A model generated the notes under the pieces. That model made no database searches, was not told where the DNA came from, and was given only the letters and a program-made list of their open reading frames with translations. The position numbers and the translations under genes were made by a program. A stretch of 64,000 bases of DNA from Yersinia proxima. Its GTDB lineage: Bacteria > Pseudomonadota > Gammaproteobacteria > Enterobacterales > Enterobacteriaceae. Positions 24,522 to 30,638 of the stretch are shown piece after piece; positions within the stretch are counted from its first letter, which is position 1, and each line of letters begins with the position of its first letter. The stretch is taken from positions 1 through 64,000 of the forward strand of contig NZ_CABHYG010000013.1 in assembly GCF_902170785.1 (NCBI RefSeq). The letters run 5' to 3'.

Positions 24522-27549
<3,028 letters not shown>

Positions 27550-27583
27550 TTACTGCGCTTAATCTTCTGTAAAAGTTGATTGA

Positions 27584-27608
27584 AAAACCCGCTTCGGCGG
27601 GTTTTTTT
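27584..27608 (+). terminator. eno terminator
   Basis: AAAACCCGC-TTCG-GCGGGTTTT with a UUCG-type tetraloop and a T run; a textbook intrinsic terminator. Confidence 0.95.
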
Positions 27609-27745
27609 ATGGCTTTATTTTGGCTTTAAAGAATAATAATAGTTATAAAGATAATTTGAGATGGCATTAAGCCTATTTTAGATAGAATAGATTGGCGTGA
27701 CCATATGAAAATATATTAGCTATCTACTCATTTATAAGGATTTAT

Positions 27746-29899
27746 ATGAGAGACCTCTCATCTATACTATCTGAAAATACATCATCATTAAGCTATAATA
27801 ATTTTGAAAACAAAATAAGTGAATTCAATAATGCGGTTAAAATAAGAGGAGATTATATTTATAGTGTTATGGAACGTGATTTTAGCGGAAAGTCTAGTTT
27901 ATCAGATCTTTTTTATCACCTATTTCCAAAATTGAGTAAATCTGATTTTGATAATTATTTGAATAAAGCTGATGGCTCATCCCCGCGATATAATTTAGCC
28001 CGATTATTAGTATTGCAAGATTCTGGTGTATCTAACGAATTAATGTCTCAAGCTGTTGAAAATGAAAATAAATATGAACTAATTTACTTTTTGATTAAGA
28101 ATGAAGTTAATGAAAATGAGATAAATGAATTATTTCGTAGGCATGATTCTCCCCACGAGATAAATATAAATAAATTACGTCAGGATTTAGATGTTTTATT
28201 GCAAGAAAAGGAGATACTACAAAATATAAAAAAACAGTATACTAATAATTCGTCTTTAACCGAAACTTCATTCTCTAAGCGAGAAGTGGGCACAATTAAT
28301 CTCCCATTATCTGATGAAAAAGTAATTTCTCATCTAAATAAAGAAATACTCAATAGTAAAAAAATAGAGATCTCAAATAAAAATGCTATGGTAGATATCA
28401 TAGAGAAAAATAGGAAGATAACTCGAACTGTAGATGATTATGGAGTTAGTAAAAAGCTGGCAAGACTTGCATATAACAATAAAATAGTTTTCCATAAATC
28501 TATTGTTATTTTAAAAAAAATGATGACTAGCGGTATTAGATATGAAGTTTTAAAAAGAATTGTGAGAGGATCATTCGATTCATCTATGCTCCATTACTCT
28601 AAGTCTATTACGGATTTCTATTTGGAACAATATAACTACAATATTAGCATTGAAGGAAATAAAGTAAATGATAGTTTGACAGGTTCTTTAATTATAGATT
28701 TAAATCACGTCCTTTCAGGTGAGAGCAGTGAGTTACGTAATAATATAATTGAAATTATTAATTTAAAAAAGGGTGAGGCTGCTTTTAGTACAGTGGAGTT
28801 AGTCACCTTGGTCAACAGCGGCGTATGCAATAAATTATTATACTCAGTTGCTAAAGGGGAAATTACTGCCAGCGATGCTTATCTTATTCATGTATTTAAA
28901 GTGAGTAAAAAGGAAATAAAAAGATTATGTAATAAGATTAGAGACAAGGAACTATCCTCAGAAGACATTTTTGCGTATGCAAAGGGGGTGCGTCAGGATG
29001 GAAATATTCAGCCAGACATAAACAATGAGTTAGTATCCGGTGTTCAAGATACCTTAAGCGGTAAGGTGAAAACCGATTCTCTCTATACTGAATCGGAATC
29101 GAAAGGAATAATCGAACCTGTTAATAACTCTGAATCTGAGAGGGGGATAGCTAGAGTTAATGTTGACATCAATATATCGGAAAGTAGTTCAACATTGGAT
29201 AGACAGAAATCTCAAATAGATGAAGGTATGAGTAAATCTTTTATTTTATACTTGAATTTATCTAAGGAAACGAATGATGTAATTTTTGACAAAATGAATA
29301 TAGAGGGGCTTTTTCAGAATGTTCGCTTAAAGGATCATAAAAAAATAATTAGCTTTCTCTCGCCCGAACACAATTATGGACTTATTGAAATTTCAAACTT
29401 GGTTATTTTGACTGAAAACAAAGCATCTGACGATCTATTAAAAAGAGTCGCGAATAGAGAGGTCTTATTTCAGCAGGCTTATGCCGAAACTCAAAGAGGC
29501 GTAATTGATACTAATATAGTTGAAAAACGTATTAAGCGTGAAGATGGAGAAGATAGCGAGCAGCAATTTATTGATGGTGTGATGGTAATTGCCAAATACA
29601 AAAAATGCCAAGAAAACTTTATATTTGATGAATGCCACGATATTTTTAAGAATGAGATGGTTAAATTGGTTGATAAAGCGATTAATGAGGCCGAAGGGAA
29701 ATACAAACCTGTTACGAATAATATTAACTCCACGGTAATATCATCTCAGAAGAGTGATATATCATCTGAAGGAAACTTCGCCTCCTTAACGGATCTAATG
29801 TCTTCCATTCTGGAAAATAGCGAAATGCTATGTTCATATAACTCACCAACCAATTCTAGTGCATGGGCCAGCCTCGGTAATATGTTAGCCGTGAGCTAA
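27746..29899 (+). CDS. Unrecognised 717-residue protein with four helical repeats
   Basis: I do not recognise this family. The protein has no signal peptide or membrane segment and is rich in Ser, Asn, Glu and Lys; the DNA is far more AT-rich than eno or sodC on either side, so it looks horizontally acquired. Four diverged units of about 60 residues can be aligned by eye, with core patterns at about 86-105 (LLVLQDSGVSNELMSQAV), 254-273 (VILKKMMTSGIRYEVLKRIV), 350-369 (VELVTLVNSGVCNKLLYSVA) and 549-568 (ISNLVILTENKASDDLLKRV). The shared pattern is roughly L-x-x-L-x-x-SG-(V/I)-x-x-x-LL-x-x-(V/A). Between units lie low-complexity stretches, and a charged segment lies near 590-608. AAGGA stands six bases before the ATG, and the eno terminator isolates it upstream. 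A Ser/Asn-rich N-terminus and lack of signal would fit a secreted effector, but that is only a guess. Confidence 0.8.
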   Translation: MRDLSSILSENTSSLSYNNFENKISEFNNAVKIRGDYIYSVMERDFSGKSSLSDLFYHLFPKLSKSDFDNYLNKADGSSPRYNLARLLVLQDSGVSNELMSQAVENENKYELIYFLIKNEVNENEINELFRRHDSPHEININKLRQDLDVLLQEKEILQNIKKQYTNNSSLTETSFSKREVGTINLPLSDEKVISHLNKEILNSKKIEISNKNAMVDIIEKNRKITRTVDDYGVSKKLARLAYNNKIVFHKSIVILKKMMTSGIRYEVLKRIVRGSFDSSMLHYSKSITDFYLEQYNYNISIEGNKVNDSLTGSLIIDLNHVLSGESSELRNNIIEIINLKKGEAAFSTVELVTLVNSGVCNKLLYSVAKGEITASDAYLIHVFKVSKKEIKRLCNKIRDKELSSEDIFAYAKGVRQDGNIQPDINNELVSGVQDTLSGKVKTDSLYTESESKGIIEPVNNSESERGIARVNVDINISESSSTLDRQKSQIDEGMSKSFILYLNLSKETNDVIFDKMNIEGLFQNVRLKDHKKIISFLSPEHNYGLIEISNLVILTENKASDDLLKRVANREVLFQQAYAETQRGVIDTNIVEKRIKREDGEDSEQQFIDGVMVIAKYKKCQENFIFDECHDIFKNEMVKLVDKAINEAEGKYKPVTNNINSTVISSQKSDISSEGNFASLTDLMSSILENSEMLCSYNSPTNSSAWASLGNMLAVS

Positions 29900-30113: not shown

Positions 30114-30638
30114 ATGAAACTGAGATATTTAATGTTGCCTGCAATGCTTTTTGCCGGCAATGTGCTGGCCGCAGGCGTTACCGTGACCATGAATGAAGCG
30201 CTACCAGAAGGTAATGGCAAAGCTCTTGGTACGGTTACCGTGACCGAAACCCCTTATGGATTACTGTTCACACCTAATTTGACCGGACTGGTGGTGGGGA
30301 TACATGGGTTCCATCTGCATGAGAATCCAAGCTGTGCGCCGGGAAAAAAAGAGGGTAAAGCCGTGCCGGCATTAGCTGCGGGCGGCCATTTTGACCCACA
30401 AAAAACCGCTGTCCACCTTGGGCCTTATAGTGATAAAGGGCATTTAGGTGATTTACCCGGATTAGTGGTGAATACCGATGGGACTGCCATTTATCAGGTA
30501 TTGGCTCCGCGGCTGAAATCACTCTCTGAACTGAAGCAGCATGCTTTGATGATCCATGCAGGAGGGGATAACTATGCCGACCATCCGATGCCTCTGGGCG
30601 GTGGCGGTGCACGAATGGCATGTGGCGTGATTGAGTAA
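30114..30638 (+). CDS. sodC: Periplasmic Cu/Zn superoxide dismutase
   Basis: Dismutes superoxide in the periplasm. 174-residue precursor with a signal peptide ending VLAA. The copper-binding HGFHLHE, bridging and zinc ligands (AAGGHFDP, then HLGPYSDKGHLGD), and the C-terminal HAGGDNYADHP and GGGGARMACG are present. The disulfide cysteines are those in NPSCAP and MACGV. AGGAAG-type ribosome site before the ATG. It stands alone between the unknown repeat gene and queE. Confidence 0.97.
   Translation: MKLRYLMLPAMLFAGNVLAAGVTVTMNEALPEGNGKALGTVTVTETPYGLLFTPNLTGLVVGIHGFHLHENPSCAPGKKEGKAVPALAAGGHFDPQKTAVHLGPYSDKGHLGDLPGLVVNTDGTAIYQVLAPRLKSLSELKQHALMIHAGGDNYADHPMPLGGGGARMACGVIE

Follow-up and report, generated by a model that had tools for sequence, protein, structure and literature searches.

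A 64,000-nucleotide stretch of Yersinia proxima DNA (hereafter the window) carries an intact 717-codon open frame (27746-29899, forward strand) between eno (26254-27549) and sodC (30114-30638). The frame starts with the ATG at 27746, ends with the stop codon at 29897-29899 and encodes a repeat protein that is rich in Ser and Asn, with a calculated pI of 5.7. The GC content of the gene is 0.320, compared with 0.489 in eno and 0.510 in sodC, and the GC content at third codon positions (GC3) is 0.28, compared with 0.47 in both neighbours. No membrane span was found in the 717-aa protein, the most hydrophobic 19-residue segment of which averages 1.07 on the Kyte-Doolittle scale. A first-pass annotation, made from the sequence alone, had described a 717-residue frame with its own ribosome site, far more AT-rich than its neighbours and devoid of a membrane segment, and all of this is confirmed.

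Distribution of the family

No Pfam-A or NCBIfam family matches the 717-aa protein at E<=10, which bears out its first description as unrecognised. The profile search proposed at that time for a described family returned no match above any cut-off, and the relatives and single units gave only sub-cut-off or chance-level matches to Pfam and NCBIfam. The best PDB sequence match, CDK5RAP3 (E 0.13), was judged to be chance, as were phrog_29025 (unknown function; E 0.0013 over 27 residues), YqzL in the G005 relative described below (E 0.0016, below cut-off), a lipoprotein (E 0.034), casein kinase II (E 0.26 or worse), a designed barrel (E 0.059) and malate dehydrogenase (E 0.073). The best match in a viral fold library had an E of 0.83.

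A protein search of 25 Yersinia genomes, with the genome of the window as G000, recovered full-length relatives in Yersinia aldovae ATCC 35236 (G001; 68% identity, intact) and in G007 (77%, one in-frame stop), together with a distant relative in G020. Shorter relatives lie in the eno-sodC gaps of G020 (271 and 345 aa, side by side), G005 (336 aa) and G016 (321 aa), and a 154-aa fragment lies in the gap of G004 at a contig end. A six-member profile matched 7 of the 25 genomes, every time at eno-sodC; a profile of the units alone matched the same seven at the same site and nothing further in the genus below E 0.13. In samples drawn from the GTDB family (198 genomes) and from the order (394 genomes), the six-member profile matched the own genome only. 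Beyond that genome, the unit profile gave two matches in 369 genomes of the class, in G776 (a helicase-like frame by eye) and G772 (interrupted by four stops), and one in 295 genomes of the family, in G189 (40 positions; the genome measures 0.5 Mb). All three lie outside Yersinia and were rejected as chance. No relative was found at E<=1 in 72,556 plasmid and 50,697 phage records, and a pattern-based scan of viral contigs yielded no confirmed relative. A scan of named genomes with the single protein found nothing and with a two-sequence alignment found Y. aldovae alone. No such gene was found in the literature searched, which took in a part of PMC2847712. In these comparisons, every accepted member came from Yersinia and from the eno-sodC interval, and none of the libraries searched describes the family.

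Organisation of the repeat units

An all-against-all comparison resolves the 717-aa form into units A-B-C-D followed by a conserved tail (Table 1). The units are approximately 60-85 residues long, occur as three or four diverged copies and are separated by long variable linkers; no tandem repeat was found in the DNA of the gene. Profile-profile comparison links A with C (score 36.3, probability 85%), C with D (38.8, 91%) and A with D (22.9, 16%), and none of 100 column shuffles scored as high in any pair. On the 717-aa protein, a profile of C gives 14.7 bits for D and 8.9 bits for A, compared with a maximum of 13.1 bits and a 1% level of 5.0 in 3000 local shuffles. The corresponding units of the G005 and G016 proteins match A (81%), C (65%) and D (14%), each with 0/100 shuffles, and the units of G007 and G004, which were left out of the unit profile, were recovered by it at 35 to 92 bits. 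Judged by sequence, A, C and D are copies of one homologous unit.

The A, C and D profiles gave nothing above the 1% shuffle level for unit B, near residue 254; the A profile scored 3.1 bits there, which exceeds the 5% level (2.6). It matches the B-type segments (b) of G005 and G016 with a score of 32.4 and a probability of 74% (0/100 shuffles). Unit B is a second unit type, common to the G020, G005 and G016 proteins and clearly shared in the case of the latter two. Its relation to the other type is uneven. The comparisons of b with D (0/100) and with the A/C/D-type units of G005 and G016 (1/100) fall in the register drawn by the first-pass annotation; those of B with A (0/100) and with the same G005/G016 units (2/100) fall in other, competing registers; and those of B with C (6/100), B with D (16/100), b with A (14/100) and b with C (22/100) are not significant.

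The earlier proposal of four related units holds for A, C and D and is less certain for B. Its quoted core motif is present in part, with the SG pair found near residues 86, 254 and 350, whereas N-K-A stands near 549 and the second Leu is Met near 254. The helical hairpin that it expected is not an exact description: the one unit with a usable fold model, unit C, has seven predicted helices, the first of only four residues. The AlphaFold model of the whole protein (pLDDT 33.2, pTM 0.21) was left out of fold searches. In the shorter relatives, the 345-aa protein of G020 is A-B-like, the G005 and G016 proteins have one B-type and one A/C/D-type unit each, and the G004 fragment consists of an A-type unit and, after it, the tail. 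The 3' end of the tail region is also the sequence that remains as a relic in G008 and G012.

Table 1. Features of the repeat-protein gene and its upstream region (positions in the window).
Feature	Coordinates	Strand	Evidence
Terminator-like hairpin of eno (CCCGC-TTCG-GCGGG + T run)	27583..27608	+	Read directly; terminator scan: none in region
Core of shared promoter region	27643..27659	+	Aligns locally with G001, G007, G020, G003 and the G010 relic (dinucleotide shuffles 0/100 or 0/200)
Candidate -35 TTGAGA / -10 TAGATA, 17-base spacing	27656..27684	+	By eye; pair not listed in promoter scan
Ribosome-binding site AAGGA	27736..27740	+	Read directly; identical in G001 and G007
CDS of 717-aa repeat protein	27746..29899	+	Open frame, conserved start and ribosome site; dN/dS 0.49 against Y. 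aldovae copy (711 codons)
Unit A, residues 44-150	27875..28195	+	Homologous to C and D
Unit B, residues 215-303, net charge +7	28388..28654	+	Common to G020, G005 and G016 proteins
Unit C, residues 331-415 (modelled as 306-420)	28736..28990	+	Homologous to A and D; model pLDDT 72.6, pTM 0.65
Unit D, residues 526-600	29321..29545	+	Homologous to C and A
Conserved C-terminal tail, residues 673-717	29762..29896	+	Identity 80% G001, 89% G007, 49% G004 fragment

Weak resemblance of the unit to the ParB/Noc helix-turn-helix

Both the fold match of the unit C model, at a low Z, and a profile match point weakly to the helix-turn-helix (HTH) of ParB and Noc. The ParB comparison set comprised 29 of 30 fetched loci (L109 was removed by a motif filter) and 20 divergent sequences, giving 49. 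Against the profile of this diverse set, unit C scored 23.1 over 53 columns (P 8e-4), and the pooled A/C/D-type units scored 19.8 over 55 columns. Neither score was equalled by any of 100 column shuffles, 94 profile decoys or 124 decoy templates, 94 of the templates being the same windows as the profile decoys. Shuffles did as well as the other sets in 4/100 cases for A, 37/100 for D, 1/100 for the G005/G016 units, 4/100 for B, 1/100 for B with b and 24/100 for b. With the 29 close ParBs, short or low matches were obtained at 1/100 for A and for all A/C/D-type units, over 18 columns in each case, and at 1/100 for B with b; no match was obtained for D, B or the G005/G016 units. The profile alignment puts residues 360-413 on the segment after the ParB recognition helix; the fold-alignment register appears to agree, given a chain numbering of the GERR box that we take to be correct. 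No ParB was among the matches listed in PDB-wide profile searches (the best 60 of 70 in one of them).

Several results weigh against this kinship. Unit C is not significant against the 29 close ParBs alone (34/100), HMMER with a close-ParB HTH profile found nothing significant, one of 137 single-sequence decoys attains the diverse-profile scores of C or of the A/C/D-type units, and designed helical proteins are among the fold matches of the unit C model. Compared with the central HTH domain of ParB, Noc and Spo0J, the Yersinia unit is repeated, and the 717-aa protein has neither the ParBc CTPase domain (no Pfam or NCBIfam match at E<=10) nor a GERR box. The net charges of the units are +7 for B, +4 for C, +1 for D and -5 for A; the would-be recognition helices are net negative in C and D, +1 in A and +4 in B. 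Because the CTPase domain and the GERR box are absent, the unit is not assigned to the family; from sequence and model, the chances that it is a diverged ParB/Noc-type HTH appear about evenly balanced, and the resemblance serves as a lead. The repeat had initially been called novel, a description that stands insofar as no profile match exceeds a cut-off and that is weakened by the ParB/Noc match.

The low Z, the designed proteins and the negative results of unit C with close ParBs and HMMER would also fit an intracellular, protein-binding helical repeat scaffold unrelated to ParB, the likeness then reflecting a common helical arrangement. However, fold and profile agree on the same natural family and no decoy profile or template is as good, and such a scaffold is considered improbable.

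The explanation proposed here, tentatively and as somewhat less than an even bet, is that the protein consists of diverged ParB/Noc-type HTH units without the CTPase part, which would act inside a cell through many weak contacts. One extended partner would be gripped by several HTH-like units joined by flexible linkers; the 717-aa protein has three homologous units and a B-type unit, and the 321-345-aa forms have one of each type. DNA or the nucleoid would be the first candidate partner, with B as the most basic unit; DNA binding is possible for B but is not apparent in every unit. The net negative charge of the would-be recognition helices in C and D makes a protein partner the alternative. 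A more specific version, in which a Yersinia-only class of ParB-type HTH has been freed from the CTPase, arrayed on flexible linkers and turned over rapidly while gripping the nucleoid or host DNA, is a long shot. Such an array would resemble TAL effectors in logic, not in descent. The repeat of TAL effectors and BurrH has 33-35 residues with a variable pair, unlike the longer, diverged and linker-separated Yersinia units.

Selection and turnover at the eno-sodC site

The ratio of nonsynonymous to synonymous substitution (dN/dS; Nei-Gojobori counts with Jukes-Cantor correction, which are rough at such AT content) is 0.49 between the own and the Y. aldovae genes over 711 codons, compared with 0.06 for sodC and 0.01-0.11 for the other neighbours compared. 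The most variable parts relative to Y. aldovae are the N-terminus (35% identity), linker 1 (56%) and linker 4 (48%), and the least variable are the segment before D, D itself and the tail (80% each); the N-terminus is 93% identical to that of G007. By these measures, the repeat protein is maintained yet fast-changing.

Related sequences mark the site in 11 of the 25 genomes, namely genes in six (G000, G001, G007, G020, G005 and G016), the fragment in G004 and relics in four. This answers the earlier suggestion to look at the same place in other Yersinia. The relics of G012 and G008 are 3' ends (26 and 33 aligned bases; 0/200 dinucleotide shuffles each), and those of G010 (0/200) and G003 (0/100) are promoter regions. 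A 126-aa frame in G003 is not significantly family-like as a protein (best E 0.037), and the relic status of G003 is by promoter only. The promoter region is clear in G001, G007, G020, G003 and G010; G005 gives a borderline match (2/100) and G016 no significant one. Its core is not a genome-wide motif (7 matches, with 7 for a reversed control pattern), and a PhoP-box pattern gave no match in the upstream regions. Thirteen of the remaining 14 genomes have no accepted trace; in G021, eno and sodC lie apart, which places it outside the relic test, and no profile match was found. Tail-test passes at a 2% cut in G005 (1/100), G002 (3/200) and G024 (2/200) were not counted, since the aligned bases, some 50-90 bases ahead of sodC, correspond to the beginning of the query and not to the end of the gene.

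A decaying orphan that now does little, with a frame surviving by chance in some species, could account for the stop codon in G007, the fragment and the relics. Nevertheless, a dN/dS well below 1 between two intact copies, together with the conserved frame, start, ribosome site and tail, makes decay hard to credit.

Because related genes, a fragment or relics occupy one site in 11 of 25 genomes, the gene looks like an old resident that has been repeatedly lost. The first-pass view of a horizontal acquisition by this genome is thus not supported, and, given the relics and the shared promoter, a recent transfer into it was rejected. A pyrG-eno DNA tree, several nodes of which are weak, distributes the 11 trace-bearing genomes over four branches. 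A single ancient arrival followed by repeated losses is a simpler account than several arrivals at one site, and an ancient acquisition by the genus is possible. Between G000 and G007, the synonymous divergence (dS) is 0.36 and 0.30 in two parts of the islet and 0.64 in sodC, compared with 0.08 in eno and 0.06 in pyrG. Exchange between species is likely, because the islet and sodC exceed eno and pyrG in dS.

The site has further peculiarities. The dS of sodC is 0.60 to G004 and 0.64 to G007, compared with 0.05-0.31 for all other neighbours compared, as if the site were drawing in foreign sodC alleles. The SodC of G022 (L019, reverse complement 568-1227) has a repeated Met/Asn/Asp-rich insert near its N-terminus that is possibly metal-binding. 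The space separating eno from the repeat-protein gene of G007 contains transposase-like frames (IS110-type by eye; L002 / L009). A second insert occupies the gap in six genomes, G013, G023, G019, G009, G017 and G004 (L006, L007, L008, L014, L015, L017), and consists of a Pyr_redox_2 gene, a small gene without a Pfam match and a Cys/Met PLP-enzyme gene (Pfam on the G023 copy). All three genes are present in G013, G023 and G017; G019 has a DDE transposase but not the third gene, G009 retains broken pieces only, and the G004 copy is cut by the end of the stretch taken.

Rapid turnover at one site, which holds a second variable insert in other species, and fast evolution would suit a defence or conflict protein directed at phages or other mobile elements and kept at a turnover site. 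This role seems quite unlikely, as no PADLOC model matches the 717-aa protein at E<=1 (the G005 relative has a weak PDC-M48B match, E 0.0013), the plasmid and phage records hold no relatives and no catalytic motif was noticed.

The principal alternative is a secreted effector, exported most likely by a type III secretion system (T3SS), whose helical units would bind a host protein and whose change and loss would follow from host interaction. Chromosomal type III effectors of enterobacteria are, as a class, fast-evolving single-gene AT-rich islets of patchy presence, and the Yersinia gene is like them in all these respects. Its units have been gained and lost between species, and its N-terminus is only 35% identical to that of Y. 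aldovae, although it is nearly unchanged in G007. An SctV-type T3SS gene scores above the cut-off in 24 of the 25 genomes, the own genome among them, which permits an effector but does not favour one. Unlike those effectors, the gene shows no correlation with the secretion gene and no family match: G005, the sole genome below the SctV cut-off, has a family gene, and many T3SS-positive genomes are without one. Moreover, the list of open frames contains no chaperone-like gene alongside, with no profile search made for one. An effector is regarded as rather unlikely, if the most serious of the alternatives, and the scaffold or effector of the first-pass annotation is neither supported nor contradicted. 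The SctV sequence of G005 lies in two separate pieces (C1:1750378-1753838).

For diverged HTH units acting inside a cell, the benefit of the gene must be conditional, because many species are without it. If the ParB-like reading is true, Yersinia would possess arrayed ParB-type HTH units that lack the CTPase switch, encoded by an unusually fast-changing and fast-vanishing gene. The work adds an undescribed protein family with known boundaries. Even if the ParB reading is wrong, the eno-sodC interval offers a clean natural series, comprising proteins of 717 and 722 aa, a side-by-side pair, single short genes, a fragment and relics, for following the gain of units and the death of a genus-restricted gene.
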